This document shows, in pieces, positions 8,300-58,560 of a stretch of 64,000 nt of DNA (the stretch's first letter is position 1; every line of letters begins with the position of its first letter). A program made the position numbers and the translations under genes. Location: positions 1-64,000 of the forward strand of contig WHVA01000486.1 of the NCBI GenBank assembly GCA_015179125.1. The letters run 5' to 3'. The notes beneath the pieces were generated by a model. The model searched no databases and was not told the DNA's origin. It saw only the letters and a program-made list of their open reading frames with translations. Source of the stretch: Gautieria morchelliformis. Lineage: Eukaryota > Basidiomycota > Agaricomycetes > Gomphales > Gomphaceae.

Positions 8300-8513
8300 T
8301 GTAAAGATGTCGATCTTAGGACCTTGTATCACAAGGGCACTGCAGAACTTGACCAATGAGTGGTATTCTGAATGCTACATAGTGACAGGTAAGAGTAAGA
8401 TGCGATGGGAACCACTGGCTGGTTCCCATGCATAAACTATACAGTGGGTCCCTAAGGGGCCCACTGGGATTATGTAATAACTATTGTACATGTAGATACA
8501 TAGGTTATTTACA
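8300..8513 (-). repeat. 214-bp LTR of the A/B/C family (3' LTR of B)
   Basis: The LTR starts TGTAAAG and ends TTTACA on the plus strand. The same unit is found at 45759-45973 and 63205-63418, flanking element C. It contains an inverted repeat, CAGTGGGTCCC...GGGGCCCACTG, near 8441-8465 that could fold. The adjacent CCCTCCCCCTCT is the complement of a polypurine tract and confirms that this is the 3' LTR of a minus-strand element. Confidence 0.9.
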
Positions 8514-8546
8514 CCCTCCCCCTCTATAGACAACTATAGGGGTCAA

Positions 8547-10583: not shown

Positions 10584-10635
10584 TTTAACCGTGCTGTGGC
10601 CGGCGCGTCACGTGGTCTGCACGTGACAGACGCGT

Positions 10636-13573
10636 CTAGCGGCGTCTGGGGAGGTCACGTGGCTTGCTCACCCCCCGAAGCTCTAGATAGCTGTCTAGGG
10701 CTTCAAGGTCCTTGCAGGACGACATGGGTTCCCATGTCACGTCGCCTAGGGTCCAACAGACCTGGAACTCCAGGTCCGTCGAGTTTATCCATCGATGTGT
10801 GATAATCTCGTCGACGGGCCACTCCTCGTCGTCATTCGCTCCGAAGTCATAAAATGACTTGGCCTCACGACGAGGGAACAATTCATCGTTGTTAGCCTCG
10901 TATCGCCGTACGACGCTTGAATGGAAGACCGGTGAAATGCGACGGGTTTTCAGCTCGTCGGGAAGATCGAGGGTCACCGTCGAGGCGTCGTTGTGAGCCT
11001 CAACAATGCGGTACGGTCCGATGTACCGCGGGACTAGTTTTCTGGCTCTTCCTTTCGGGAGAGTTAGGTTTTGTGTCGAGAGGTAGACGCGGTCGTTGGC
11101 CGCGTACCTGTCGCTCGCCATACGTTTCTTATTTGCATGAAACGTTTGTGTCGCTCGATGCTCTATGATTGCATCGTGTGCCGCCATCAGGTTCCATTTT
11201 GCCTGATGTGCGAACCGGGCTACCCCCTTGAACGGGGTGTCCACGGCTATGGGGAGGTCTATCCGCGGCATATAGCCGTGGTTCAGCTCGAAAGGTGCGA
11301 ACCCTGTGGTCGCGCTGACGTTGCTGTTGAGGGCGACCTCAACCATTTGGCATTTCAATGCCCAATCCTTCTGATTGTCTCTGATGACCGCGCGCAATAT
11401 CTGGCCAATCGAGCGGTTTGCCCGCCCGGTGGCTCCATCCGCTTGGGGATGGAAGGCAGTTGACATGAGAAGCTTAGTCCCCATGAGTCACTGCAGTTCA
11501 CGCCAGAAGATCGACGTGAACTTGGAGTCTCTGTCCTAGACGATGGAGTTGGGAACTCCGTGGAGTCGAACGACCTCCTTCAGAAACAGCCAGGCTACTC
11601 CTTGGCTGAAACGCTTGTCGTGGTTGGTACGAGGTGTACGAGCGACGTTAGTCGGTCGATGACTACCATCAGGTAGTCACAGTCGTTGGATTTGGGCAGG
11701 GGCCCCATGAAGTCGATGCCAATCGACTGCCACGGCCTATCCGGAATGGGTAGGCTGTGTAGTAGGCTTTTGGGCCGTTGTGGTCCGGTTTTCATCATCT
11801 GACACCTCGCACACGATGTGCAGAACACTTCTATGTCTGGGCTCATGCCCAGCCACCAATATGCTCTTCGAACGTAGTTCGAAGTCTTCAGATGGCCGTA
11901 GTGGCCGACTATCTGATGTGCCCGATCAATGATAATTTTGATCAGCTTCCTTCCCCCTTGAAGAACAGAGCGGGGGATGGCAATGACATCTCTTTTGAGC
12001 TGGTTCTTAGTCCAGATCAGCCCGTCCTGGATCCCAAATCTCGGGTGCGCGTCCGGGTGTGCCATGATCTTTGTGAACATGGTGTCCCTGTGGTATGTGT
12101 CTCGTAAAACCTTAGACAGGTCTACGCCTTGATCGATGACCCGGCGCAGGGGTGCGCCGTCATTTCCTGCGGCGATGGCTCTGACATCATCGTCATTGTC
12201 GCATGACGCGGCGATGTTAGCGGGCTCTGGTGAGCCCTCATTTAATGCGGCGGATTCCGTTACTCTCGCCTCTGTCTTCTCCGTGAGGTGTTTAGAGCAT
12301 CTTGTCGCCGCTGTTCGCAGCTCGATATATCGGTCGGTGGGCAATAACTCACCGTCCGGGTCTAAACGCGCATCCGCGTTCACGAAGACGTGGTCCGGGT
12401 GATTGTCATCACTCGTGTTATTCTCGTAGTAGCGCGACAGGCAGTCCACTACCTTGTTCTCTACACCGTCAACATGAACGGTGTTGAAATTGAACCGGGA
12501 GAGAAACTCCCACCATCTGACCTGGCGGTCAGATAGGCTCTTCTGGGTCTCGAAGTACTCGAGCCCTTTGTGGTCTGTGATGAGGGTGAACCTTCGCCCC
12601 AGCAGTTTGTCCTCCAATTTCATGAGAGCCTCGAGCACCGCGATTGTCTCGTGCTTGTGAGTCCGGTAGTGTTGCTGAGCAACGCTGAACTTCTTTGACA
12701 AGAAGCCGGCAGGTCGACAGGTTTTCCAGTCAGGACCTTGGCCGTAGACCGCACCGACGCCGGCTTTTGACCCGTCGGTGATCACCCAGATCGGTTCTGG
12801 GCACCTTGCGTCTACTGGACGCAGGATCGGGGCCTTACAGGCCAACGCCTTAATGCTTTGCCAGCATTTGTCTAGTAGTGGAGTCCATTTCAATGGACGG
12901 TTATTACGCGCACAGCCCAATAGTGGGGTGGTATATGCGCTAACATCTGGCATGTAGTGTGCCAGATACTGTACGAGCCCGAGGAAACGCTGGACGTCGT
13001 TGAATGTCCGTGGCCTGCGCCACTCGTGGATGCGTTGCATCTTGTCCTCATCGGCATGTACCTCTCAGCCATCGATAACATGGCCGAGACACTCCATTCG
13101 GATGGAATAGAGCTCCACCTTTTTCTTGCTCAGAAAAAGGTGATTCTTCCTCAGTCTGTCAAAGACGATGTAGAGGTGCTCTTCATGCTCTTGTATTGAG
13201 AGCGAGAATATGAAGATGTCGTCCATGTATACATGGACAAAGCGACCTATGCAGTCGTGGAAAATGGCTGTCATCAGCCGTTGGAATGTTGATGGGGCGT
13301 TACAGTCCCTCATCTGTATCACCTGGCTCCTGAAGGTGCCAAGGATCGTGGCAAAGGCAGTCTCTGCTACGTGATCCAGATGGATCCGGATCTGCTCATA
13401 TGCTTCTGACATATCGAGTTTTGTTCGATACCGACAGTGAGCCATGTCGCTGTGAATGATATCCTGATCCAGGAAGGGCGTGACGTCCTTCACCGTGTTC
13501 TCGTTCTGCTGGCGCAGATTGAAGATGGTTCGCAATGTACCGTTCTTCTTCAGCACACACAGCATGGGCAGGC
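10636..13573 (-). pseudogene. Pol region of element B (RT, RNase H, integrase, chromodomain-like tail)
   Basis: On the minus strand the RT palm with a YMDDIFIF active-site box lies near 13214-13233. RNase H with ITDHKGLEYFETQK lies near 12560. The integrase zinc region (HQIVGHYGHLK and CTSCARC) lies near 11800-11920, the integrase core near 11700, and the C-terminal integrase with the GDVTWEPMSSCKDLEALDSY tail at 11484-10636. That tail is the C-terminal chromodomain-like module of fungal chromoviruses. A few breaks are present. It is closest to the pol regions of A and C. Confidence 0.92.
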
Positions 13574-40006: not shown

Positions 40007-41281
40007 TGTCATGATGCGTTTATCTCCCATACTTAGAAGCTCAGTTTTTCCTATTTTCTCACCCCACCTTCGTGTTCGTTCCGATCACCATTGTTATGTT
40101 TGGCAACCAACTCTCGCTGTTCGCGCCAACTACCATAGCCGCACCGTCAAACGCACTATCGATGTCCTGGGACTGACTCGGCAGTCATCACTGGGCCTAC
40201 CACATCCTCTGCTCGACCCTCTTCCGATGGTGTCCTAATAGTTGGGTTGTCATGACCTGTGCATTTCCTGCACCTTGGTATCCCTATTTTCCCTTTCGCT
40301 ACTCCTCCTCAGTATTCGCTCGGCTTCGCCCTCCACCTCGACCTCTCCTCCCCTATGTCACCTCTGTTCGCCCTTCCTTGCATTTCGCCGAACGGCTATT
40401 CGCTGCTCGCATCATTCGCCAGCAGGCACACCATCAAATACGATCGATACCATTCACCCGGCATGATGGTTCATCATTAACCCCATCGCCTTCTTAATCC
40501 AACCCCATTGGGTGTTCGTATGGTCAAAGTATGTTCGCAGGACATCCCCCCCATAAGCCGTGTGGAATCAACCCAGTAGACCAAGAGTCCGTGCAGGGTA
40601 GCATGTACGCAGGTCCCAAGACATGGTTTTGTCCATAAGTGCCTTCGCCACCTCTACTCTCCGTCGTTTCATGTTCTCCCTCTTCTTACATTCTATTGTA
40701 TGTTTATTTCATCTATGTTGTATCATGGCTGCGCACCCCTATCCAACCCTGACTTGTGACGGCCTCTTTCCTATTCGCTGATACCTTACGAGCATTCGAT
40801 ATAAGTAGTTTACATTTGCATGTATATTCCCCAGTTCAATTATCATACGTCGTCCATCTTGTGCAAACTTGACCTCGCTGTGATCATCATCTTGAGCCTC
40901 TCCTTGAAGGTTTCTATCTTCAACCAGCCAAGGACTTAGGCATCACTGGTGAGTTCTCATACTTCATCTTCGTTACCTTAGCCTTCGAACTATTTTCTGT
41001 GCTGTTGGCAAAGGGCTCTGAAGGAGCACCTTCGCCAGCGAAGGGACCGTCGAAACTTAGACAGCCCTTCCGCGATATCTTGCACGCTACGTCGTCAAGT
41101 GCTGCAAGCTATTTCGCTACAACTGTAGATAGGGTGAGCCCCAGTTAGGCAAACCCTCTTATCTTGTGAACATTCATTGGTTCACCTATTCGCCTAATGG
41201 CATACTTATTTGCACAAGTTATTCGGGCATTCGCTGTGTTCACTAATACACGATATTAACGCCTAAAACCCAATCTTCACA
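40007..41281 (+). mobile_element. Solo LTR of family S, copy 3 (1275 bp, target duplication GGTCA)
   Basis: It starts TGTCATGATG and ends CTTCACA, with GGTCA at 40002-40006 and 41282-41286. It has two 5' units starting TGTCATGA (40007 and 40248, 241 bp apart). The body matches 23555-24581. TTCGC words are frequent. Confidence 0.92.
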
Positions 41282-44100
41282 GGTCAAAGCCCACCAACTG
41301 CAAGGTCTACCCGCTGTCGCCCAGAGAGCAGGTAGAGCTCAATGCATTCCTCGCGGAGAACCTCCATACTGGGAGGATCCACCCCTCTAAGTCACCCATG
41401 GCATCTCCAGTGTCCTTCATCAAGAAGAAGGACGGCTCACTCAGACTTGTGCAGGATTACCTGGCCTTGAATGCGATCACGATCAAGAACTGGTACCCCA
41501 TTCCACTCATTTCCGAACTGATCACACAACTCCATGGTGCAAGGTACTTCACTAAGCTGGATGTCCGCTGGGGTTTCAACAATGTCGGATCCGTGAGGGA
41601 GACGAGTGGAAGGCTGCATTCCGCACCAACCGAGGGCTCTTTGAGCCACAGGTCATGTTCTTTGGCCTCACCAACAGTCCTGCCATGTTCCAGACGATGA
41701 TGAATGACATCTTCCGCGACATGATAGCGGAAGAGGTTGTCTGCATCTACCTTGATGACATCCTCATCTTCACGAAAACAATCCTGGAGCATTGGGAGGT
41801 CGTGCGGAGAGTGCTGGAATGGCTCTGGGAATACAACCAGTGCCTCAAGCTGGAGAAGTGCGAATTTGAGTGGACGTGGATAGAGTATCTTGGGGTAATC
41901 GTGTCGGAAGGAAAGGTGGAAATGGACCCAGTCAAGGTTTCTGGTGTGTCGGAATGGCCTATGCTGCGGAACAAGAAGGAAGTCCAGTCCTTCATCGGGT
42001 TTGTCAATTTCTACCGGCGGTTCATCAAGGACTTCTCCTGCCATGCCCGTGCCCTCTTTGACCTCACCAAGAAGGAAGTTGGATGGTGGTGGGGAGAGCC
42101 GGAACAGGCCTCCTTTGACAAACTCAAGGAGCTGATCACTTCTGCTCTGGTCCTGATATTTCCCGACAACTCTCGCCCTTATCGAGTCGAAGCGGATTCT
42201 TCCGACACAGCCACCGGAGCGGTCTTGTCGCAGCAGCCATCAGAAGATGATGGCATGTGGCATCCGATTGCCTTCTTCTCCAAGAGCCTTACTCCGGTGG
42301 AGCGGAACTATGAGATCCATGACAAGGAAAAGCTGGCGATCATCTGAGCGCTGGAGGAGTGGCGACACTTCCTCGAGGGGGCTCCGTGTCCGTTCGAGAT
42401 CTGGATGGACCACAAAAACCTTGAGTACTTCCGCACATCCAAGAAGTTGAACCGACGACAAGCATGGTGGTCCCTACACCTGTCTCGGTTTGACTTCATG
42501 CTCCATCACCGCCCCGGCCGCACCATGGGCAAGCCCGATTCCCTATCCCGCCATGCGGATCATGGAAGCGGAAGTGGAGACAATGCTGACATGACATTGC
42601 TCTGCCCAAGCCTCTTTGCAGTCCGTGTGCTCGAAGGAGTGACTGCCATTGGGGCGGAAGTGGAAATGCTCTGGGACATCCAGAGGCAGTACCAGAATGG
42701 AGAGAAGGAGGAATCTGTGGTGAAGGTGGTGGAGGAGCTGCGGAAAGGGCATTCACGGTCAGTACGGGCAGCGGAGTGGTCAGAGCATGATGGGTTGCTC
42801 CACTTCAGGGGCAAGGTCTATGTTCCAGATGGGGTGAACCTCCACCGCCATATCGTGTCCCAACACCATGATACCCGGGTCGCAGGGCATGCTGGGAGGT
42901 GGAAGACGCTGGAGTTAGTGGCTCAGAACTATTGGTGGCCTCAGATGTCCCGCTACATTGGACAGTACGTGAAGATGTGCGACCTTTGTCTCTGGACCAA
43001 AGCACAGTGACATCCACCTATCGGAGAGCTTGTTCCACTCCCAATTCTAGAGTCCCGCTGGGACACCATCAGTGTCAACTTCATTGTCGAACTCCCAGAG
43101 TCTCACGGCTACGACGCAATCATGAATGTCATGGACTCAGTAAGCAAGATGTCCCACTTCATTCCAACACACATGATGATCACCACTCTTGGAGCGGCCG
43201 GCCTGTTCCTTGCGCATGTCTGGAAGCTGCATGGGCTCCCAAAGCAAGTCGTTTCCAACCGAGGTCCACAGTTCATCACAGAACTGACACGAGAGCTCTA
43301 CCACCTGCTCGGAATAAAGCTGGCTGCCACCACAGCATACCATCCGCAGGGTGACGGACAGACGGAATGGGGCAATAAGGAACTGGAGCAATATCTCCAC
43401 CTCTTTGTCAATGAGAGGCAGGATGACTGGGACGAGCTACTTCCACTGGCGGAATTCCAATACAACAACCATGTACATTCCACCACGCAGCAGACTCCCT
43501 TCATGCTTGACTCCAGACAACACCCACGGATGGGCTTCAAGCCACACCTGGCAGAGTCCCGACTCGAGACAGTCAATGAGTTCCAAGACTGCATGGACTC
43601 CACCCTGTCAGAAGCCAAGTCTGCCCTTGCAAAGGCCAAGGATGACATGGCAAGGTACTACAACCAACGCCGGGTTCCTGCCCCAGAGTACCAAGTCAGA
43701 GACGAGGTGTATTTAGACGCAAGTGACATCTGCACCACACATCCTTCGCAGAAGCTTGCCCACCACTACCTTGGGCCCTTCACAGTGATGCGGAGGGTTG
43801 GACAGAACATGTACCGCCTCCGACTTCCGAGCTCCATGTCCCGCCTCCACCCTGTCTTCAATGTAGTGAAGTTACTCCCTGCGCTTGAGGACCCAATTCC
43901 AGGTCAGAAGGCTCGTCCGCCACCTCCCCCAGAAATATAGATGGGGAAGAGCACTATGTGGTGGAACGAATCCTTGACAGCCGGTTTGTGCGAGGACGAC
44001 TCCAATTCGTCGTGAAATGGGAAGGATATGGGTATGAGGAGAATTCGTGGGTCCCAGAGCAAGATGTCTCCACTCTGGACAAACTCCGTGAGTTCTATAG
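41282..44100 (+). pseudogene. RT, RNase H, integrase and chromodomain region of element E
   Basis: The landmarks are those of F1: YLDDILIF near 41750, EIHDKEKLAII near 42320, the integrase zinc region and core near 42900-43200 (CDLCLWTKAQ, then SHGYDAIMNVM), the YHPQGDGQTEWGN segment near 43350 and a chromodomain with VVKWEGYGYEENSWVPE near 44010-44060. It is a fossil. Confidence 0.9.
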
Positions 44101-44195
44101 GACACACCCTGGTGCCCCTCGCCGAATCCGTTCACTGGCCTTTCAATCCCTCGTGTCCCATGCTTTGAGGACGCAGCACGCTAGAGGGGGGGTGA

Positions 44196-44667
44196 TGTCA
44201 GGGGACACCCTGTTTCCCATTTCCAGTTCCGACTCCATTTCCAACTCCGGTTCCAGTTCCGATTCCATCTCCGCTTCCGCTTTCGGAAATGATTCCGCTT
44301 CTGGCAGAACTTCCACCAGTTCTGTTCACTTCGCCAATTCCGCTCCATTTTCCGACTTCCGCTCTCAGAACAGTGTCAGAAGTCAAGCGACTCATGTAAC
44401 AGGTGACATCAAGGGTCGATCAAGGGTCAGGGAGGTCAGGGGGATGCAGGGTTGATGGCGAGTGCCAAGTGTTGTCCCTGGCTGCGGAGCGTAGTATAAT
44501 ACGGGCTCGCTGACATTGGGGGTCCTTAGACCTTTCTCTTTGGATTTCCCCTTGTCAGGTGAGAATCCCCTCTCTTGTATACTCAGTTCATTTATACATA
44601 ATTTGGATTTCCCCTTGTCAGTTGTGTGGTAGTGTGGTCTCCACAACCAGCCAGGGTTGCCCTTACA
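44196..44667 (+). repeat. 3' LTR of element E (472 bp, family F)
   Basis: It starts TGTCAGGGGACACC and ends CCCTTACA, with the TATAATA box and an AGACCTTTCTC variant of the primer word. It ends at a junction with the inverted F-family fragment (44668-45758). Confidence 0.9.
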
Positions 44668-46009: not shown

Positions 46010-47242
46010 CTACTCATAGAGGTCGTCCATGAGGGCATCCTCTAGAGTGGCCGATACGACGTCGTCGTCGTCGTACGGGGCCGGAGGAGCACGTGACTCC
46101 TCCGGGGGCATCTCCGCGTCGTCGGTGGCGATTGGGTGAGGCTGGTCAGCCTCACCACTGGTGGCAGTCTCCGCTTGTGCGCTGGGGCCCGTGTCCTCAC
46201 AGAGCATAGCCTCGACGGCCGGGTCCTCCGTTTGAGGAGGGGGCCGGAAGCGCGCCAGCTCTCGGTCGAGCTGAGCGTGAGTGAGGGGTCGTGGCACTGC
46301 GGCCCTCACATGACTGGTCTCGATGACCTTTTGTTGGCCTTCACGGGCGGCGGCGCTGAATGCCGCGCCGGTGATGCTGCGCTGAACGTAATGTTCAATG
46401 CGCGCCACTCGCTCGCGAGTGACCCCTGCGTAGCGGGCCAGCCATCTCGCGATCTCCGCGAGTGGGATGTTGGGGCCGGCTCGGCCCTCCACAGGGAATG
46501 GGCCCGTGATCGAGAGCCGCAGGGTGGTGCTCTGAGGTGTGAGCACTTCCCTGGCGTCGACGAGGCTCGACCATTGGTCAGTCGAACCGAAGAGGTCGAG
46601 TAGCCTCGCCCTGAGTGGTGATGCGACCCCTTTGACCCAGGGCGCAAGGGCCTTCAACCACATCCAGACGTCCATGTCGTCTAGGTTGAAGGTGCCATCC
46701 GCGTTGTCACGGATGGCGGAGGGGATTCCTTCGGGGTTGTGTATCCAACCCTTCAGGATGGCCGCGATATCGTGCGGGGTACCGCCTGCTATCACGAGAC
46801 AATCCCTTTTGGGATTGCGAGCGCGTTGTTCGCGCTCGATGCGTTTGAATACGCCGATCATCTCGCACGTACGCGCGATCTGCGGCGTTTCCTTTGCCCG
46901 CGCTATGAGTTCGACGAAGCGGGGTTCGTCAAGCGGGCAGAGGTCGTACCATTGGGTACGACGTTGTTGGGCCTTTCCCACCGGTCGTGGTAGGAGGCCC
47001 GTCTCAGAGATCGGTGGATCTCCGAGCGGGATGAGCCTTCCCTCCCCCGGGTAGGGAGGATGGACTGACTCAACTGTCCCCGCCGGCGGAGGTAGGGCCA
47101 CGCCAGGCCCGATGTACTGGGCCTCAACCTGCGCTATCCGCCGCTGAAGGGCGGGGTCGTGGATGGTGTGCGACGATGACGCCACAAGGTAAGCGCTGAT
47201 TGCGCTTTCCTTCGCCATGGCTAGCCCATTGGCGGTGTGGAG
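46010..47242 (-). pseudogene. ORF3 of element C, C-terminal part (split by C2)
   Basis: The frame is open from the C2 insertion point to the stop and is highly similar to the C-terminal 60 percent of ORF3 in B (RMIGVFKRIEREQRARNPKR-type core, MDVWMWLKALAP, and the VTRERVARIEHYVQRSITGA block). Its partner part lies at 54756-55560. The open frame suggests that ORF3 was kept until C2 arrived. Confidence 0.85.
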
Positions 47243-47247
47243 GGAGC
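47243..47247. repeat. Target-site duplication of C2, left
   Basis: GGAGC here and at 54751-54755 directly flank the C2 LTR ends. Confidence 0.95.
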
Positions 47248-47808
47248 TGTTACGATACGATCCGTCGTAAGGTTGACCGAGGTCGGGGACGAAACCCGAG
47301 TCAAGGTCCGAGGTTACAGGGCGAGGTTTGGATGGGGAGGTCGGAGAGGGACTTGGCTTCAGCTTATGTGCTGCGCCGACCCTACGCACGAGTCCCAACT
47401 TCGGAGGTAAACGAATAAGAGGCGAGGTTCTAGCTTAAGAGGCGAGGCGTAGAAACTAGCTAGGGATCGAAGGGACACGATAGTTGATTTTCAGACTAAG
47501 GAGTAGGAATGCATACAAGGGGGTTATATACGGACGAGGTGCAAGTCAGGGGCGAACAGATTAGTGGAGGTCAGGGCGGGGTCAGGAGACCGAGGTCAGG
47601 GCGAGGTAATATACGAATGATGCGTGATGGAGCGGAATCAGTAACTAAGGGGATACGGGCATGGGATCAAGGTCGGATATGAGTTCAAGCTCGGGATCGG
47701 GCTCGGGCACGGATAAGTATCATATGTACTCGGGCATGAATATCACAAGGCTCGGGCTCGGAAGAAGGTTCTACCGGTAAGTAGCCGGCCAAAGGCCGGG
47801 TCCTTACA
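47248..47808 (-). repeat. 3' LTR of C2 (561 bp)
   Basis: It starts TGTTACGATACG and ends GGTCCTTACA on the plus strand. I count eight CGAGG and five CTCGG words on the plus strand. Confidence 0.95.
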
Positions 47809-47932
47809 GTATTCCCCCCTCATGGCCGAGACCCTCGAGGCCGTAATGTGAACAGGGTTCGCCTATCCTTGAATCTAGATCTCGGTCCGATGTTAAGTAG
47901 CTGGAAAGGCGAAGCTTAAATCGTAGCCGAGG

Positions 47933-49106
47933 TTGGATAAAAGGGTGGGTAGGAGGCAGCGAACCCCATTGCCAACGAATATGGTGCGCCCTCAAGCCCT
48001 CTTCAACTCAGCCGTCGACGAGGACAGCACAAACAACGTGTTCGACCAGACATTGCTGTCTGCGGCGAACGGAGCCTCGGGCGAGGTTGTGCCCGAGGAT
48101 CGACCCGAGGTTGGCACATTGCCAATTGATGAGACGGGGGCCATTGACATGCGGCAGCCGTGGCAGGAAGGGCCGAATGGAAAAAAGGTGAGTACCGTTG
48201 TTGGCTGGTCATGGACGCTGCTGATTTGTACAGTATAAGCGCATGTTGTTTTCATACCACCCGACTGACTTGTCCCTATACGGGTACAAGCTCGCCGACG
48301 GGGGACCCCGCGAGTGGCAGCTCGCGACCAAGGCCGAGGCGAGGTGCGCGCGCTGCGAAGAGCGCGACTATACGTGCCTTCGGGCCGTTAGTCTCGACTT
48401 CGGCCTCGCCGACCAGGGTGCTTGCGTGTGGTGCAGGACCCGTTCCTTGGGCTGTAGCATCGCCCAAGGTCGCCGCAGCAAGGCGACCCCAGGGAAAGGT
48501 CAGGTGGGTGTAGCGAGCAAGAAGCGAGCGAGGAGCGAGGAGGCCGAGGGTGAACCGAGGCCGAGGAAAGGGGCCAAGGTTCGAGACGAGGTGGATGATG
48601 ATGACAACGACTCGAGCGATTGGGTCGAGCGTAACCTTGAGACGAGGGTGGAGAGGATGGAAGCGAGGCTGAGCGAGGGGAAGGGAAAGGAAACAGAAGG
48701 GGCGAGGCAGAATGAGGGAAAGGAAACCGAGGTGGAGGAAACCGAGGTGGAAGGTCGGAGGGCGAAGAAGGACAAGAGGACGAAAAGATCGGAGCGGAGT
48801 GCGGAGATGAGGGAGTTGATAGCGGCTGTGAGGGATGTGGGGCAGAAAGTTGGTGAGGTTGGGGAGAGGGTGTGCGAGTTGCTGGGGGAGTTTAGGGCTG
48901 CGAATGACAGGATGAACAGGGCGGATGTGGAGTTCATGAGGATAAGGAGGAGGCGGAATTATTTGAAGCGGATGCAGGGGGCGAGAGACTTGGCGGATTA
49001 TGGGGGACATGGGGGTCTGGTGGAGCGAAGTAGTAGCAGTAATGAGGAGGAGTCAGGCGAGGGGAGCGAGGAGAGCGAGGGAGAGGATATGAGGATGGTG
49101 GAATAA
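47933..49106 (+). CDS. Antisense accessory gene of C2 with Zn2Cys6-like cluster
   Basis: This gene lies on the strand opposite to gag-pol and starts 125 bp inside the 3' LTR. The first frame (47933-48187) encodes an acidic, unstructured N-terminus. A GTGAGT...TACAG interval (48188-48234) has fungal intron borders. The second frame (48243-49106 and a little upstream) holds C-x2-C-x6-C-x15-C-x2-C-x6-C (residues 35-71 of the 287-residue frame, around CARCEERDYTC and CVWCRTRSLGC). A basic patch (KKRARSEEAEGEPRPRKGAK) follows, then an acidic segment, a long charged helix with heptad-like periodicity (around AVRDVGQKVGEVGERVCELL) and a Ser/Glu-rich end. The cysteine spacing is that of fungal zinc-cluster DNA-binding domains, with a somewhat long central loop. 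The same architecture exists in element D. The DNA-binding function is inferred. Confidence 0.75.
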
Positions 49107-49209
49107 CTAGTAAATGGAATAATAGACTTTTCTTGGATTTTATCGATTTTGTTTTGAAGGGTTTTTGTCATCTAACTACCGGGGTCATGGGGATTAACAG
49201 GGAAAACGA

Positions 49210-52200
49210 TCATAAAGCAGTCAAGGGGCCGGGCTTGCCCGGGTAAGAGTCATGGAAATCCGTGACCAGCTCCGAGGCATGATCAAGCTCGGAAGCGAGG
49301 ATCCACGAGGTTTCTTCGTCGGTACCTTCGTAACCAGTCCACCTAACAAGGTAGAGTAATTTGCAGCTCTTGCGTCTATTATCGATCTTCGAGTCGAGGA
49401 TTTCGGAAACCTCGAACTCGGGTTCGCCGTCGATAACGACTGGGGGCGGAGGCGGCTGAACTCGGTTTGGTATGGTGTTGGGCGAGGCTGGTTCGAGCAT
49501 AGATACGTGGAAGACCGGATGGACTGAATGCATGTGTTCTGGAAGTCGAAGGGTGAAGGAGTGAGTACCCGCTCGGGAAATGATTTCAAAAGGACCCAAG
49601 AACTTCTCGGCGAGCTTCTTGGTAGGCCGAGTTGTTCGAAAGTACTGTGCCTTCACAAAGGCGAGGGATCCTACTTGGAAATCAGGAGCGGGCTTGCGAC
49701 GAACATCGGCCGAGGCTTGGTAAGTTTTCTGAGCCTCGAGGATGGCGTGGCGAAGTTCTTGGTGAAGCTCGTCCAGGTCAACCACGAAGTCTCGGGCTCG
49801 TGCCGAGGCGAGGTCGCGCTCGGGGTGAACTGCGAGGTTCGGATGGTAGCCTTTATTGGCAAAGAATGGGGAGACGCCGGTGGTTGCGCTAGGCGCGTTG
49901 TTGTAGGCGAACTCGGCTAGGGGAAGGAGCGAAGCCCAATTGGACTGCTGATAGTTGCAATAGATCCTGAGGTACTGTTCCAAAGTTTGGTTAGCACGCT
50001 CGGTCTGACCGTCACCCTCGGGATGATATCCCGAGGTGAAATGCAACCGCATGTCCAAAGCTTTCCCTAGGGAACGCCAGAAGTGCGAACAAACTCGGAA
50101 CCCCTGTCCGAGGTGACGTGCGAGGGGACTCCATGCTTGGAAAAGACATGAAGGACGAAGAGGTGAGCGAGCTCTTGCGAGGTTATCTTGTCTGTGGTTG
50201 GAATGAAGATAACCTGCTTAGTGAAGCGGTCAACAATCACTAGGATGGAGGTGAACTCGGATGAAGGGGGGAGTTGCTCAATGAAATCCATAGATATGGA
50301 ATTCCAAGGTTTCTCGGGAACAGGAAGTTGTTTGAGGAGACCATAGGGTTTGTGACGTTGCGGCTTGCTTCGCATACAAGTGGTACACGTCTTGCAATAC
50401 TCCTTGACAAAGGATCTAATCCCTGGCCAAGTATAGTCTCGTCGGATCAGCTCCAAGGTTTGTTGACCCCGAAGTGTCCCGAGAGAATGTGATCGTGCTT
50501 GTATTGCAGGATGCGAAGTCGAAGGTCTTGGGCCGCTGGAACATAGGTTCGGTTGTCAAGTTTGAGAAATCCCTCGGGGTCTGTGGTCCACCTCGGGTCA
50601 TTAACCAAGCCGAGGTGCGACTTGGCTATGGGGTCCGAGGGGAGGTTTGCCAGTATGTCAGCTCGGATCTGCTCGGTATCAAGCAGTGAAGCGGCTCGGA
50701 GTACGATGGGAGCGAGGTTAGTAGCTCTAAGGGACGATGCCAGCTGGTGCTGAGTAAACACTGGCCGTAGGTTCTGCGGGTTTATGGTGGCATAGTCGCT
50801 ATTCCCCTCTTTAAGGTAGACGTCCCATCGTCTAGTGAGAGAGTCAGGCTTCGTTCCGAGGCGACCTGGTCGGAAGCGTATGACGAGGTTGAACTGGGAA
50901 AGGTATTCCGACCACCGAGCTTGTCGACGGGTCAAGAGCTTCGTAGTTGAAAAGTATTCGAGGTTCTTGTGATCGGTGATAACGTCAACTGGTTCGCCTG
51001 AGCCCTCTAGGTAGTGTCGCCAGCGTTGAAAGGCTTCAAAAATGGCGAGGAGCTCCTTGTCGTGAACATCGTAGTTGAGCTCGGTAGAGGTGAATGTGCG
51101 GGAGTGGAAAGCGACGGGATGAAGTTCGCCTTCCGAGGTTCGTAGTGATAAGATTGCCGCTAAGGCATAATCTGATGCATCAGTCTCTACGATCAGTGGA
51201 AGGTCAGGAATCCAGTGAGTAAGGATAGGGGCGGTAGTGAACGCCCTCTTCAACAGGTTGAAAGCCCGTCGACAATCCTCGGAAAAATTCCAAGGGGTAC
51301 CCTTGCGGGTAAGTCGGGTGAGAGGAATGGTGATGTCGGAGTAGTTGTGAATGAAACGTCGGTAGAAGTTGGCGAAGCCGAGGAAGGATTGGATGTCGCG
51401 AACTTTGCGAGGTTCAGGCCAGTCTTGAATGACCTTTACCTTGTCATCCGCCATAGTGAGGCCCTCGGGAGAGAGTATGTAGCCGAGGAATTCAACCGAG
51501 TCGCGATGGAACTCGCATTTGTCTTCTTTGGCGAAGAGGTTGTTGAGTCGTAGTCGTCGCAAGACTTCCTTGACATGTTCAACATGTTTGGAGGGGTCAC
51601 TGGAGTAGATTAGAATGTCATCCAAGTATACCACCACACAAACGTCCAAAAGGTCGGCGAACACCTCGTTCATGAATCTCTGGAAGGCAGCAGGGCCATT
51701 AGTGAGACCAAATGGCATAACCAACCATTCAAAAGACCCATAGCGAGTCCTGAAGGCGGTTTTCCATTCGTCACCCTCGGCCACCCGTACGAGGTGGTAA
51801 GCGTGACGAAGGTCAATTTTCGTATAGATGCGAGCATTCTTTGGAGCATCAAGTAAGTCAGCAATCAATGGCAATGGATACCGATCTTTTTTTGAGATTT
51901 TGTTCAAACCTCGGAAGTCGACACACAACCGAAGTGAGCCATCTTTTTTGCGAACGAACAATACCGGTGCACCATGAGGCGAGCGTGAAGGTCGGATGAA
52001 ACCGATGTTTAAATGCTCGTCGATGAACTCGCGAAGTGCTTTGAGTTCGGAAGCTGAGAGAGAGTAGATGGGACCGATTGGTGGCGAGGTCCCTTCTTCG
52101 AGGTTGATTTTGATATCGTGAGGTCGGTGGGGAGCTAGAGTGTCAGCGCGTGCTTTGCTGAACACATCTGCAAATTCGTGGTATTCTTCAGGAACATGTT

Positions 52201-52870
52201 TCTTAATGTTCTCAGGAAGCTCGGAAGAGCTTCCTCCCGATGTTGCCCCTCTGGCGAGGAGCTCAGGCGAAGCCAAATTGAGCTGAAACACTTCGGACCC
52301 TTCCAATCTAGATGCGCGCATGAAAGCGGGTGCATTGATTAGGGAAACGAGGGGTGCTTGCAACTTCGGAAGCGAGGTCGGAGGCGGGGGCGAAGATGCC
52401 GTAGGCGAGGTCGAAGTCGTAGCCGAAGCTGAGCGGGCTGACGTCGCCGGGGTCGCTGGAGTCGTTGTTAGGTCGATGGTCTTGAAAGTAATACTGCCCA
52501 ATACCCAGTCAATCGACGGATTGTAGCGGGTGAGCCAGTTGTGGCCAAGTACCATCGAGCAACTTGAGTCGAGCGAGGTTACGTAGAAGGTAACCCATTG
52601 TTGTTCGCCGGTCGGAAAGCAAATGCAGAGGTCTAGAGCTTGGGTAATGGTAGTGTTAGTACTACCGTCAAATAGTTTCAAGGGTATAGGAGAGACAGGA
52701 TAAGCAGGCATGGAGTACTTCTGGACAAATCTGGATTCAATAAAACAGTCTGAGGACCCGCAGTCAACTAATGCAACAAAAGCGACGTTGGGCAGCGAAG
52801 GCGAGGTTAGATCTACATTAAGGGAATCTTTGGACAATGAATGAGAAGCGGCGCTGAGTCTGAGCACACG
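49210..52870 (-). pseudogene. Pol region of C2 (protease, RT, RNase H, integrase, chromodomain)
   Basis: On the minus strand: protease region with VDCGSSDCFIES near 52760, FRGLNKISKKDRYPLPL near 51900, the RT box VVYLDDILIYSS near 51610-51635, RNase H with VITDHKNLEYFST near 50960, the integrase zinc region CTTCMRSKPQRHKPYGLL near 50370, the core WNSISMDFIEQLPPSSEF near 50270, YHPEGDGQTERANQTLEQYL near 50020, and a chromodomain (LLYLVRWTGYEGTDEETSW) near 49310-49370. It is the best preserved pol in the window. It has a small number of breaks. Confidence 0.93.
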
Positions 52871-52925
52871 GGTGAGGTTACCGCAATCCTCGGATCGTGT
52901 GGTTCCGAGGTTGCTACCTATTTTT

Positions 52926-54146
52926 TCACCTCCGTAATGGAGGCGAAGTCCCCTCGTTAGGGGTCTTCGTTGCCCGACCTTTAGAACCGCTACTATTGGT
53001 AGACTTGTTCTTCGGGCAGTCCTTGACGACGTGACCTTTGGTGCCGCAAAGCAGACAAAGCCTTGGTCGACCCGCGTTGGCGCTCCTCGGGAAGCAGTTT
53101 GCCATCCTTCCCGAGTTTGCTCGAAATGTCGGGCTGGCTCTTGTTGTTCGAAGAGTTGTTGTTGTTGGAACCCTTGCCGCTGTTGTTAGTCTTGTTGCGG
53201 TTCTTATTGTTATTGGAACCACTGGAAGACTGGTGGTTGTTAGTGGCATTGCTACTGGACTGATTAGTGGTGCGTGCAGGCTGGGAGCTACGACCATTGA
53301 TCATGGCGTCGTATTCCTTTCGCTCCCAGTAACGGCTATCGCATTCCAGCGCGAAGTTCCTAAGCTCGGCGAGGCTGCGGAATCGAGGGAAGTGAAGTAA
53401 GTCGTCCTTGATCCGTTTGGCCAAGCCCTTGTAGGCAAAGTGTCGGAGGGCCGCGTCGTTCCACTGAGTCCGAGTCGAAGCTCGGGCGAAATCGATAAAG
53501 AATCGCGCGGCCTTGTGGTGCTCTTTCATAACGATCTTCTCGAGGTCAATCTCGGCTTGGGCCGCGTTGTCGTATGGGCCGAAGTTAAGCTCGAGCTCGG
53601 CCTTGAAGCTGTCCCAGTCCTCGAGCCAATCTGGCTCGGGTTGGACTTCGCCGAGGATCGCCGGCTCGAAATATTGCAGAGCCGAGCCGGACAGGTAAGA
53701 AATAGCATACTGCACCTTCGAGGCCCCAGTCTTGAACGCGGTGGGGCGATCTCTGAAGTTGAGTACACATTGAAGGAAGAAAGTGCGAAGCTTGGCTTGG
53801 TCAGTACCGTCATAACTATCCGGTTCCTTGACCTTGGCTCGTGCTTCGGATTCGCGAGGTTTCGCGAGTTTGATGAACACTCGACGCATAAGCTCGTTGT
53901 CCTCGAGGTCACCGAGGTCCTCGGGCGGAAGGTTGGGGAGGTCCCGATCGTTGTCAGAACTTCTAGAGCCATCACCTGGATCACCTGAAGGGTCACCGAG
54001 GTTAGCCCTACCTTTGCCTTTGTTACTAGGCTCGGCGGGGTCTGCGAGGGGTATCCCCGGGACGGGGGTGAGTCATCGGGGGCTTCCGAGAAACGTCGCT
54101 GTTCTGAGATACCCCGAAGGGTGCGAGAACGAGTTATCATGGACAT
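52926..54146 (-). pseudogene. Gag region of C2
   Basis: The capsid-type gag domain contains FFLQCVLNFRDRP, KVQYAISYLSGSALQYFEP and DWDSFKAELELNFGPYD. It is followed by a very Asn/Ser-rich low-complexity linker and the CCHC knuckle CLLCGTKGHVVKDC (near 53010). The N-terminal part begins near 54146, just after the primer-binding site. A few breaks are present. Confidence 0.85.
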
Positions 54147-54176
54147 CGTGAAAAAAGGGATACGTAGGGTGTAAGC

Positions 54177-54187
54177 AGTCTGAAAAT
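54177..54187 (-). promoter_or_regulatory. Predicted self-primer binding site of C2
   Basis: On the minus strand ATTTTCAGACT lies two bases after the 5' LTR. It is the exact complement of AGTCTGAAAAT in the LTR (54429-54439, minus strand), which in turn lies 33 bases after the TATATAA box. This fits Tf1/sushi-type self-priming. Confidence 0.7.
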
Positions 54188-54189
54188 AC

Positions 54190-54750
54190 TGTTACGATAC
54201 GATCCGTCGTAAGGTTGACCGAGGTCGGGGACGAAACCCGAGTCAAGGTCCGAGGTTACAGGGCGAGGTTTGGATGGGGAGGTCGGAGAGGGACTTGGCT
54301 TCAGCTTATGTGCTGCGCCGACCCTACGCACGAGTCCCAACTTCGGAGGTAAACGAATAAGAGGCGAGGTTCTAGCTTAAGAGGCGAGGCGTAGAAACTA
54401 GCTAGGGATCGAAGGGACACGATAGTTGATTTTCAGACTAAGGAGTAGGAATGCATACAAGGGGGTTATATACGGACGAGGTGCAAGTCAGGGGCGAACA
54501 GATTAGTGGAGGTCAGGGCGGGGTCAGGAGACCGAGGTCAGGGCGAGGTAATATACGAATGATGCGTGATGGAGCGGAATCAGTAACTAAGGGGATACGG
54601 GCATGGGATCAAGGTCGGATATGAGTTCAAGCTCGGGATCGGGCTCGGGCACGGATAAGTATCATATGTACTCGGGCATGAATATCACAAGGCTCGGGCT
54701 CGGAAGAAGGTTCTACCGGTAAGTAGCCGGCCAAAGGCCGGGTCCTTACA
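54190..54750 (-). repeat. 5' LTR of C2 (561 bp)
   Basis: Same length as the left LTR and no difference seen by eye. It contains TATATAA (54466-54472, minus) and the primer word (54429-54439, minus). Confidence 0.95.
54466..54472 (-). promoter_or_regulatory. Predicted TATA box of the C2 LTR
   Basis: TATATAA on the minus strand lies 33 bases upstream of AGTCTGAAAAT, the predicted transcript start. The same spacing occurs in the F and F' LTRs. Confidence 0.65.
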
Positions 54751-54755
54751 GGAGC

Positions 54756-55560
54756 CGCGCAATTTCTTGCGCTTTCTCTTTGGCTGCTCTGCCAGCCGCT
54801 GTGCCCGTTCAGGGTCGTACGTCTTCCAGACGGACGAGTCAGACTCCCATCCATATAGGACGCCATACGCAGAGTCGGAAGGTGCGCTCTGCCCTTCCGT
54901 TGTTGTCGTGGTCGGCGTTGGCGCCGACAATCGGGACGCGAGCCCCGATGTTGCGCACGCCGGCAATGGTGCCGTCGCGCGAGGTGAAGACGGTCCGGCC
55001 ACTGGGTCTGTGGCTGGGTCATGTCGCGGCATTTTTGAGGCAGCGTGAACCAGGGTAACCTGGAGCTGGGCAGCACTCAGCTGCTGCTCCAGCTCCTTGA
55101 TCCTGGCGCGCTCGTTTACGAGCGCGTCGTCGCAGTCCCGGACCGCGCGTTCTAGCTCCTTGACCTCCTTTTTGAGGTCGTGGACATCCCGGAGGGGCTC
55201 CTCCCGTGCGTCACGCGCGATGCCCCGTGGGAGCCACCCCCAGGCAGCATCGACGGCGTCGCCGATGTCCTCATCCCGCAATTTGACCTTGCAGGTGCCG
55301 GTCACGGCCCTAAGGTGCACGGCGTAGTCCGCGCACATCACGCAATCGTCCAGGTGGACGATGGCGAGGGCGTCCTCCCATCCCACGATCGTCCAGTGCT
55401 CCTGGTCTACCGGAGCACGGAGAATGTCCGCGGCCCCTTGTCTCGGGGCCGTTGTTCGCGCTGTGGACGTTGACGGGTCAACGTCCATCCCATCTTTGGG
55501 GGGCATCATCTTCGTGGGTAGATGATGGTGGTGGTTGCTTCCAAGAAGCGATGCGCCCTC
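54756..55560 (-). pseudogene. ORF3 of element C, N-terminal part (split by C2)
   Basis: It contains KDGMDVDPSTST, EHWTIVGWEDALAIVH, the Cys pair (DDCVMC), the coiled-coil-like stretch DLKKEVKELERAV and the SDSSVWKTYDPERAQRLAEQ block, all as in ORF3 of B. C2 entered just after this part. Confidence 0.85.
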
Positions 55561-55632: not shown

Positions 55633-58560
55633 CTAGCGGCGTCTGGGGAGGTCGCGTGGCTTGCCCACCCCCCAAAGCTCTAGGTAGTTATCCAGGGCTT
55701 CAAGGTCCTTGCAGGACGACACGGGTTCCCATGTCACGTCGCCTAGGGTCCAGCGGACCTGGAATTCCAGGTCCGTCGAGTTTATCCATCGATGTGCGAT
55801 AATCTCGTCAATGAGCCACTCCTTGTCGTCGTTTTCTCCAAAGTCATAAAATGACTTGGCCTCGCGACGAGGGAACAATTCGTCGTTGTTAGCCTCGTAT
55901 CGCCGTACGAGGCTGGAATGGAAGACCGGTGAAATGTGACGGCTTTTCAGTTCATCGGGAAGATAAAGGGTCAACGTCGAGGCGTCATTGTGAGCCTCGA
56001 CGATGCGGTACGGTCCGATGTACCACGGGACTAGCTTTCTGGCTCTTCCTTTCGGGAGAGTTAGGTTTTGTGTCGAGAGGTAGACGCGGTCGTTGGCCGC
56101 GTACCTGTCGCTCGCCATACGTTTCTTATTTGCATGAAACGTTTGTGTCACTAGATGCTCTATGATTGCATCGTGTGCCGCCATCAGGTTCCATTTTGCC
56201 TGATGTGCGAACCGGGCTACCCCCTTGAACGGGGTGTCCACGGCTATGGGGAGGTCTATCCGCGGCATATAGCCGTGGTTCAGCTTGAAAGGTGCGAACC
56301 CTGTGGTCGCACTGACGTTGCTGTTGAGGGCGACCTCAACCATTGGGCATTTTACTGCCCAATCCTTCTGATCGTCCCTGACGACCGTGCGCAATATCTG
56401 GCCGATCGAGCGGTTTGCCCGCTCGGTTGCTCCATCCGTTTGTGGATGGAAGGCAGTTGACATGAGGAGCTTAGTCCCCATGAGCGCTGGAGTTCACGCC
56501 AGAAGATCGACGTGAACTTTGAGTCTCTGTCCGAGACGATAGAGTCGGGAACTCCGTGTAGTCGGATGACCTCCTTCAGAAACAGCCAGGCTACTCCCTT
56601 GGCTGACACGCTCATCGTGGTTGGTACGAGGTGTACGAGCGACGTTAGTCGGTCGATGACTACCATCAGGTAGTCATAGTCGTTGGATTTGGGCAGGGGC
56701 CCCATGAAGTCGATGCCAATCGACTGCCACGGCCTATCCGGAATGGGTAGGCTGTGTAGTAGGCCTTTGGGCCGTTGTGGCCCGGTTTTCGTCATCTGAC
56801 ACCTCGCGCACGATGTGCAGAATGCTTCTATGTCTGGGTTCATGCCCGGCCACCAATATGCTCTCCGAACGTAGTTCGAAGTCTTCAGATGGCCGTAGTG
56901 GCCAACTATCTGATGTACCCGATCGATGATAATTTCGATCAGTCTCCTTCCCCCTTGAGAACAGAGCGGGGGACGGCAATGACGTCTCTCTGAGCTGGTT
57001 CTTAGTCCAGATCAGCCCGTCCCGGTATTCCGAATCTCGGGTGCGCGTCTGGGTGCGCCATGATCTTTGTGAACATGGTGTCCCTATGGTACGCGTCTCG
57101 TAGGACCTTGGACAGGTCTACGCCTTGCTCCGACGCCGTCATTCCCTGCGGCGATGGCTCTGACGTCATCGTCGTCGTCCTAGACGCGGCGACGTTCGCG
57201 GGCTCTGGTGAGCCCTCGTTTAATGCGGCGGCTTCCGTTACTCTCGCCTCTGTCTTCTCAGCGAGGCGTTTAGATCGTCTTGTCGCCGCTGTTCGCAGCT
57301 CGACATACCGGTCGGTGGGCAATAACTCACCGTCCGGATCTAAACGCGCATCCGCGTTTACGAAGACGTGGTCCGGGTGATTGTCATCACTCGTGTCGCT
57401 CTCGTAGTAGCGCGACAGGCAGTCCACTACCTTGTTCTCTACACCGTCAACATGAACGGTGTTGAAATTGAACCGGAGAGAAACTCCCACCATCTGACCT
57501 GTCGGTCAGATAGGCTCTTTTGGGTCTCGAAGTACTCGAGTCCCTTGTGGTCTGTGACGAGGGTGAACCTTCGCCCCAGCAGTTTGTCCTCCCATTTCAT
57601 GAGAGCCTCGAGCACCGCGATAGTCTCATGCTCGTGAGTCCGGTAGTGTTGCTGGGCAACGCTGAACTTCTTTGACAAGAAGCCGGCTGGTCGACAAGTT
57701 TTCCAGTCAGGACCTTGGCCGTAGACCGCACCGACGCCGGCTTTTGATCCGTCGGTGATCACCCAGATCGCTCTGGGCACCTTGCATCTACTGGACGCAG
57801 GATCGGGCCTTACAGGCCAACGCTTAATGCTTTGCCAGCATTTGTCGAGCAGTGGCGTCCATTGAATGGACGGTTATTACGCGCACAGCCCGATAGCGGG
57901 GTGGTATATGCGCTAACATCCGGCATGTAGTGTGCCAGATACTGTACGAGCCCAAGGAAACGCTGGACGTCATTGAACGTCCGTGGCCTGCGCCACTCGC
58001 GGATGCGTTGCATCTTTCCTCGTCGGCATGTACCCCTCGGCCATCGATATATGGCCGAGGCACTCCATTCGGATGGAGTAGAGGTCCACCTTTTTCTTGC
58101 TCAGAAAGAGGTGGTTCTTCCTCAGTCTGTCAAAGACGATGTAGAGGTGTCTTCATGCTCTTGTATTGAGAGCGAGAATATGAAGATGTCATCCATGTAT
58201 ACATGGACGAAGGACCTATGCAGTCGCGGAAAATGGCTGTCATCAGCCGTTGGAATGTTGATGGGGCATTACAGTCCCCCATCTGTATCACCTGGCTCCT
58301 GAAGGTGCCAGGATCGTGGCAAAGGCTGTCTTTGCTACGTGATCCGGATGGATCCGGATCTGCTCGTATGCTTCTGACATATCGAGTTTAGTTCGATATT
58401 GGCAGCGAGCCATGTCGCTGCGTATGATATCCTGATCCGGGAAGGGCGTGACGTCCTTCACCGTGTTTTGTTTGCTGGCGCAGATCGAAGACGGTTCTCA
58501 ACGTACCGTTCTCCACACAGCATGGGCACTGCCTGTTGCGCTACTGCCGGAATCCACCAC
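55633..58560 (-). pseudogene. Pol region of element C (RT, RNase H, integrase, chromodomain-like tail)
   Basis: The landmarks are those of B: RNase H VTDHKGLEYFETQK near 57540, zinc region CTSCARCQMTKTG near 56800, core IDFMGPLPKSNDYDYLMVVI near 56690, TAFHPQTDGATERANRS near 56430 and the tail GDVTWEPVSSCKDLEALDNY near 55700. It is broken more often than in B. Confidence 0.9.

Follow-up and report, generated by a model that had tools for sequence, protein, structure and literature searches.

We found that C2, a chromovirus in the 64,000-nucleotide stretch of Gautieria morchelliformis DNA analyzed here (the window), carries a two-exon gene between its chromodomain and its 3' LTR, on the strand opposite to gag-pol, and that sequence comparisons among its copies mark this gene as a protein-coding accessory gene of the element family. 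LTR elements, chiefly those of plants, have for years been known to carry antisense extra genes, to which no function has been assigned. Our preferred reading, to which we give slightly better than even credence, is the prediction that this one is transcribed and spliced and yields a nuclear, metal-holding dimer that regulates its own element in trans. Given the clean coding and splicing evidence, the many near-identical fungal copies and the small size of the protein, its transcription, localization and DNA binding are directly testable.

The C2 element and its setting

The window comes from a genome of 122 Mb in 1113 contigs. C2 lies on its minus strand and is a chromovirus by its content, with RT, RNase H and chromodomain all found between its LTRs.

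47243..47247, no strand: GGAGC target site duplication, first side of C2 (read from the sequence)
47248..54750, minus strand: C2, Ty3-type chromovirus (terminal repeats identical; GGAGC duplication; RT, RNase H and chromodomain matches)
47248..47808, minus strand: 3' LTR of C2, 561 bp (100% identity to the 5' LTR)
47809..47821, minus strand: polypurine-tract-like GAGGGGGGAATAC adjoining the 3' LTR (read from the sequence)
49210..50217, minus strand: ORF with SH3 domain and chromodomain, the 3' end of pol (PF24626, PF00385)
50447..53185, minus strand: ORF with RT and RNase H (domain matches)
54190..54750, minus strand: 5' LTR of C2, 561 bp (identical to the 3' LTR)
54751..54755, no strand: GGAGC target site duplication, second side of C2 (read from the sequence)

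Since the two LTRs are identical, the insertion is recent, and the initial description of the antisense gene as cargo of a young chromovirus agrees both with this and with the LTR and pol flanks found in other copies. Around the integrase, pol falls in three different frames, so the window copy may not be autonomous.

C2 itself sits within another Ty3-like element, which flanks it at window positions 46010-47247 and 54756-55509, with 55633-56481; the two flanks match the window element at ~8300-13500 with 89.6% and 91.5% DNA identity. The insertion interrupts an extra ORF of this host element, the uninterrupted version of which is a 678-aa sense-side frame at 8547-10583 that follows the SH3 ORF and gave no firm Pfam match (the nearest, ATG16-like at E=0.0015, was below the cut-off). 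At 41260-44455 the window also holds a chromovirus of another family, abundant in the genome by chromodomain among the matches listed.

Gene layout and splice signals

The antisense gene of C2 runs from an ATG at 47981 to a stop at 49106 and encodes 359 aa in two exons with a phase-0 junction.

47981..48187, plus strand: exon 1, 69 codons (dN/dS 0.23; ATG in 55/57 copies)
48188..48233, plus strand: intron, 46 nt, 45-48 nt among copies (GT donor in 56/57, YAG acceptor in 57/57, core divergence 0.35)
48221..48225, plus strand: branch-site motif CTGAT, of the form CTRAY (CTRAY in 57/57 introns)
48234..49106, plus strand: exon 2 including the stop codon (dN/dS 0.21)

These counts refer to 57 distinct sequences, reaching down to ~80% identity with the window copy, that were obtained from 78 loci: 30 from a DNA search, 30 from a protein search (21 repeats) and 18 chosen as divergent. 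The set is a biased one, with near and intact copies at the top of the searches and divergent copies included by choice.

The first-pass annotation had described a 287-codon frame, and this frame exists, but it covers exon 2 only from an internal ATG onward. The exon-like frame upstream of it and the GTGAGT...CAG borders between the two, noted at the same time, proved to be features of the family, with splice signals kept in 56-57 of the 57 copies. The donor was GTGAGT in 53 copies, GTAAGT in 2, GTGAAT in 1 and ATGAGT in 1, and the distance from CTRAY to the end of the intron was 13 nt in all 25 introns inspected for spacing. The intron core has drifted to a mean divergence of 0.35 (31 copies), about that of silent sites (pS 0.29-0.33). 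By every sign that the sequence offers, the gene is spliced. An acceptor at 48239, our first choice, was discarded, because copies have TATAAA or TACAAA there and keep the YAG at 48233.

All 57 copies retain the intron, with zero losses. Being antisense to the genomic RNA, the intron would not be spliced out of it and would survive transposition; zero losses are thus to be expected, as genomic RNA would carry the intron in reverse, and they would be surprising with the antisense mRNA as the template for transposition. The intron also provides a simple assay, since a spliced plus-strand read can derive only from the antisense transcript.

The two genes converge, and only ~100 bp lie between their stops (window 49107-49209, between the antisense stop at 49106 and the end of the gag-pol frame at 49210), and given this short gap the sense and antisense transcript ends probably overlap.

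Coding status and selection

Complete read-through proteins of 348-383 aa were obtained from 34 of the 57 copies. For dN/dS we used 31 of the 57, less than 97% alike, leaving out the partial copies L014, L074 and L078 along with near-identical ones. In the antisense frame dN/dS was 0.227 for exon 1 and 0.211 for exon 2; over whole exons the other five frames gave 0.93-1.96, excepting the mirror frame (0.417 in exon 1 and 0.385 in exon 2), which is interrupted by stops in 24 of 2085 codons of exon 1 and 155 of 8881 codons of exon 2. Across the same 31 copies the antisense frame of exon 2 held 7 stops in 8888 codons versus 108-531 in each of the five other frames. By sub-region, dN/dS was lowest in the C-terminal part (0.16), followed by the Cys region (0.19) and the middle (0.30); in the middle the ratio of one other frame came down to 0.74. 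Over 37 copies, the antisense gene had a dN/dS of 0.19, compared with 0.11 in the 3' frame of pol.

At a GC content of ~0.60, as found at the antisense gene, long frames occur on both strands, and one might for that reason suspect a frame that is open by chance or because it shadows a gene on the gag-pol strand. The selection on the antisense frame and the kept splice signals contradict such a frame, as do the three opposite-strand frames, which have 108-155 stops per ~8880 codons of exon 2 and dN/dS above 1 in two of three cases; we regard its probability as negligible. The low stop count likewise sets the cysteine-bearing frame of the initial description apart from chance, and the proposed check on which strand is under selection came out on the side of that frame, with dN/dS of 0.23 and 0.21. 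These substitution patterns indicate that the antisense frame is protein-coding and under purifying selection, and the opposite strand does not explain them.

The same data bear on whether the antisense RNA could itself be the functional product, as siRNA or by interference with the convergent gag-pol transcript, with the frame incidental. The two genes do converge, with stops at 49106 and 49210, and antisense transcripts may regulate other elements (excerpted text of PMC7264820). However, if only the RNA mattered, conserved amino acids and splice signals would not be expected alongside a drifting intron and drifting silent sites. As the sole function it is contradicted by the selection data and we consider it very improbable, although the RNA may have a role besides that of the protein.

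Association of the gene with one chromovirus family

We fetched 60 search loci with their flanks, which represent 39 distinct places in the genome, and LTR sequence lay upstream of the antisense gene in all 39. The distance from LTR to gene was mostly 112-184 bp, with ~650 bp in L020 and L021, and L025 matched only 82 bp of LTR. On the other side of the gene the pol 3' end was present in 38 of the 39 places; the exception, L014 (the same as L050), is a much shorter locus that was probably ended by a contig edge. Both LTR and pol flanks were also found in the four divergent copies fetched with flanks (4/4).

To obtain a sample unbiased by the gene, we searched by the pol 3' end alone and took the best 40 of 688 candidates. 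Antisense gene sequence, not always whole, lay at the expected offset in 36 of these 40 places, and in the other 4 it was not found among the matches listed. Genome-wide, matches to the antisense gene came to at least 150 rows (best 135 of 568 candidates scored). Among the 37 copies that have 700 or more aligned pol bases (666 pairs), the silent divergence of the gene was correlated with that of pol (r=0.87). The shared flanks and the correlated divergence indicate that the antisense gene is an accessory gene of one chromovirus family, inherited with the element. In the other chromovirus family no relative of the gene was found within ~2.6 kb of any of 6 loci (L087-L092; best tblastn E=4), a comparison that covers that family alone, as the six non-C2 chromodomain loci are one family, matched by eye to the window element at 41260-44455.

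Leader and possible promoter

The gene had been said to start 125 bp inside the LTR, which we correct here: position 47933 lies outside the LTR, 125 bp into the internal region from the edge at 47808, and the ATG is 173 bp from that edge. The interval includes a conserved leader with a TATA-like box.

47888..47959, plus strand: conserved leader that may hold the antisense gene's promoter (12-nt steps diverge by 0.006-0.062 in 29 copies, versus 0.35 for the intron core in 31)
47936..47943, plus strand: TATA-like box GATAAAAG (present in 53/55 copies, 45 nt upstream of the ATG)

The spacing from GATAAAAG to the ATG was 45 nt, or 46 in a few copies. For the count of this box, 55 of the 57 copies had enough upstream sequence, and one of the two that lack it, L078, has unrelated sequence upstream. 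Leader divergence was measured in 29 of the 31-copy set, and LTR and leader were compared in 15 non-redundant copies of 38 aligned. In these 15 less divergent copies the LTR steps ranged over 0.013-0.130 and the leader steps over 0.020-0.067, so that constraint on the leader does not clearly exceed that on the LTR; conservation of the leader could also serve the sense RNA. A promoter of the gene's own in the leader is plausible on these signals, if weakly so, and antisense transcription may start in the LTR instead.

The predicted protein

After its N-terminal part the protein has the Cys6 motif, then basic patches and an acidic stretch, and it ends in a heptad segment followed by an acidic tail.

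48345..48455, plus strand: Cys6 motif, C-x2-C-x6-C-x15-C-x2-C-x6-C (each Cys in 54-57 of 57 copies)
48819..48986, plus strand: heptad segment, probable coiled coil (a/d positions 69-75% V/I/L/M/F; helix in single-sequence model)

The motif is present as first described, and the cysteine conservation check suggested with it spoke for it: the six cysteines are kept, in order, in 57, 57, 57, 57, 56 and 54 of the 57 copies, also across TGC/TGT changes. The exact motif occurs in 31 of the 34 intact proteins, the remaining 3 being without one cysteine, and by simple counts all 34 have a basic patch and an acidic tail. In 8 of 8 proteins V, I, L, M or F occupied 69-75% of heptad positions a and d versus 10-17% of positions elsewhere (best of seven registers, unshuffled). 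AlphaFold2 models of single sequences placed a long helix, with pLDDT of at least 90 over 54 residues, about the heptad segment; the Cys region was modeled at low confidence (mean pLDDT 52).

A Pfam search with 8 of the antisense gene proteins gave weak matches only (best E 0.023, a coiled-coil family), a search of solved structures nothing credible (best E=1.1), and a scan of viral contigs no confirmed relative. Transposon proteins are often absent from annotated proteomes. A single sequence, a profile and the Cys region were each used in word-based searches covering 5.8 billion proteins, which reach only proteins that share 5-residue words (profile, best 7993 candidates; Cys region, 16 candidates); the sole relative listed was a Gautieria morchelliformis fragment inside a hypothetical protein, with 90% identity over 17% of the query. 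The best place for this fragment in the window's genome matched it in three pieces with 92-98% identity. From its composition we infer a product that is predicted to be a metal-stabilized, dimeric, nuclear nucleic-acid binder.

Fungal Zn2Cys6 factors (PF00172) have the spacing C-x2-C-x6-C-x5-12-C-x2-C-x6-8-C, and basic residues are expected between their second and third cysteines. The first-pass annotation had called the antisense gene Zn2Cys6-like, and the protein and this family do have in common a pair of C-x2-C-x6-C half-sites and a heptad segment. Unlike these factors, however, the antisense protein does not reach the curated cut-off of the PF00172 profile (1 of 8 members matched, at E=0.49, with no match in the window's exon 2), has a middle loop of 15, beyond the range of 5-12, and carries between Cys 2 and Cys 3 a stretch, EERDYT in most copies inspected, that is not basic. 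On profile, loop length and this stretch, canonical membership is not supported, and it was dropped.

The same three points also weigh against the proposal that the gene is a host Zn2Cys6 transcription factor captured by the element, which the half-sites, basic patches and heptad segment would suit. A PF00172 search of the genome found 17 places (90/90 candidates scored), none of them at the listed antisense gene copies, and no host paralogue appeared among the matches listed, although TE copies filled these and one could be hidden. Capture from the host seems quite unlikely to us.

Relation to known antisense genes

Antisense ORFs between pol and the 3' LTR are a defined class (aORF-3R), mostly from plants, with functions stated as unknown, in which Boty of Botrytis is named as a fungal case; a nuclear product (GENE23) and an own promoter are reported for Grande of maize (all from excerpts of PMC7264820). 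In Retand, antisense coding regions occur in all clusters, and a probably DNA-binding TRP28 domain in 97% (excerpted text of PMC11963269). In three respects the C2 gene fits this class: it is placed between pol and the 3' LTR on the strand opposite to gag-pol, is present in most copies and is conserved as a protein. Antisense transcription, a further trait of the class, is implied for it by the splice signals. It shares with the members described in those excerpts (PMC7264820, PMC11963269) the place, the orientation and the family-wide presence, and with some of them a nuclear or predicted DNA-binding product, or, in Grande, a promoter of its own. The rarity claimed for such genes at first pass was therefore overstated, the class having been described already (PMC7264820, in part). 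What distinguishes the C2 gene from Retand is its short intron with kept splice signals, the word "intron" being absent from the excerpted text of PMC11963269. C2 further differs from the plant members in being a fungal chromovirus and in sharing no Pfam domain with them.

Zhao et al. reportedly described brtn, the antisense gene of Boty in Botrytis cinerea, in 2011. Boty, compared here by citing descriptions, is like C2 a Ty3-type element of a fungus that bears a chromodomain and an extra gene in antisense; brtn is mentioned in the excerpted parts of PMC8365987 and PMC4227169. The excerpted text of PMC3248453, a survey of fungal LTR elements, does not contain the word "antisense". Unlike C2, Boty has an ascomycete host. 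A spliced antisense Cys6 gene in a basidiomycete chromovirus, or any such fungal gene, was not found in the open-licence literature searched, and to a class already known the C2 gene would add a spliced basidiomycete Cys6 case.

The leucine zipper of bZIP proteins is a coiled coil. None of the 8 antisense gene proteins searched had a Pfam match to a bZIP domain, and the likeness of the C2 gene to HBZ of HTLV-1 is one of layout only. HBZ and other deltaretrovirus antisense proteins are similar in that a spliced antisense gene toward the 3' LTR encodes a nuclear regulatory protein, which in the case of HBZ represses sense transcription (PMC8622228, in part). Unlike C2, HTLV-1 is a retrovirus and not a fungal element.

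Proposed function

A role as nuclear regulator is our best guess, argued from the composition of the protein and from published parallels (Grande GENE23, Retand TRP28 and HBZ). Antisense transcription would start in the leader beside the 3' LTR, or in the LTR, and the transcript would run tail-to-tail toward gag-pol and then be spliced. The product would be a nuclear protein of ~360 aa in which the six cysteines hold metal, the coiled coil gives a dimer and the basic patches bind nucleic acid. Such a protein might act on the DNA or chromatin of the element and set its sense transcription, nuclear entry or integration, in a mode likened to that of HBZ acting on HTLV-1 transcription.

The Cys6 motif, basic patches and heptad helix would also suit general nucleic-acid binding, as in a replication helper that serves the pre-integration complex as a nucleic-acid-binding cofactor or as an adaptor for nuclear import, and a role in that complex has been raised for plant antisense ORFs (PMC7264820, in part). 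However, a separate, intron-bearing antisense transcript would be uncoupled from the RNA of the particle, which better fits a nuclear regulator. We regard a helper as possible but doubtful.

Apparent allele exchange and loss of the Cys region among copies

Several copies differ from the window copy far more in the antisense gene than in pol. Relative to the window copy, L057 had a dS of 0.010 in pol and 0.226 in the gene, and L029 had 0.019 and 0.207, respectively. A gene dS above 0.15 together with a pol dS below 0.03 was found in 60 of the 666 pairs and the reverse in none (0/666); these pairs are not independent, and a few groups of near-identical copies supply most of the 60. In L024, L028-L030, L057 and L059, the LTR and pol are near-identical to those of the window copy and patches of the gene have 79-94% identity; the differences are patchy, segments at 79-93% alternating with segments at 99-100%. 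The LTR of L024 is 99% identical to that of C2, yet it shares its 47-nt intron type with L055 and L058, two copies with LTRs of 89-90% identity. Gene alleles thus seem to have been exchanged among elements, and recombination during reverse transcription would explain their patchiness. Such exchange among near-identical elements is a lead on the evolution of elements and their accessory genes.

We also examined three further elements with near-identical pol (L094-L096), a non-random sample picked for absence from the gene match lists, and the Cys region was absent in all three (3/3). Frames are broken in L094 and L096; in L095 an in-frame deletion (69 + 225 codons) removes the whole Cys region and leaves the N-terminus, intron, heptad segment and tail in place. 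In view of these losses, and of the 3 intact proteins (of 34) that lack one cysteine, an individual copy may be able to do without the motif. The Cys-less copies could be decaying, or they could be natural antagonists. An unlikely extension of the regulator reading is that control is allele-specific, with alleles swapped by template switching and in-frame Cys-less versions acting as natural antagonists; if true, the family would have its own counterpart, in a retroelement, of immunity and anti-immunity alleles. A large Cys-less subfamily, suspected from short open frames, was rejected, as the in-frame junction was found at 2 places only, plus one with 3 mismatches. In the search table, the junction of L095 recurs at G000:C182:113152-113793.
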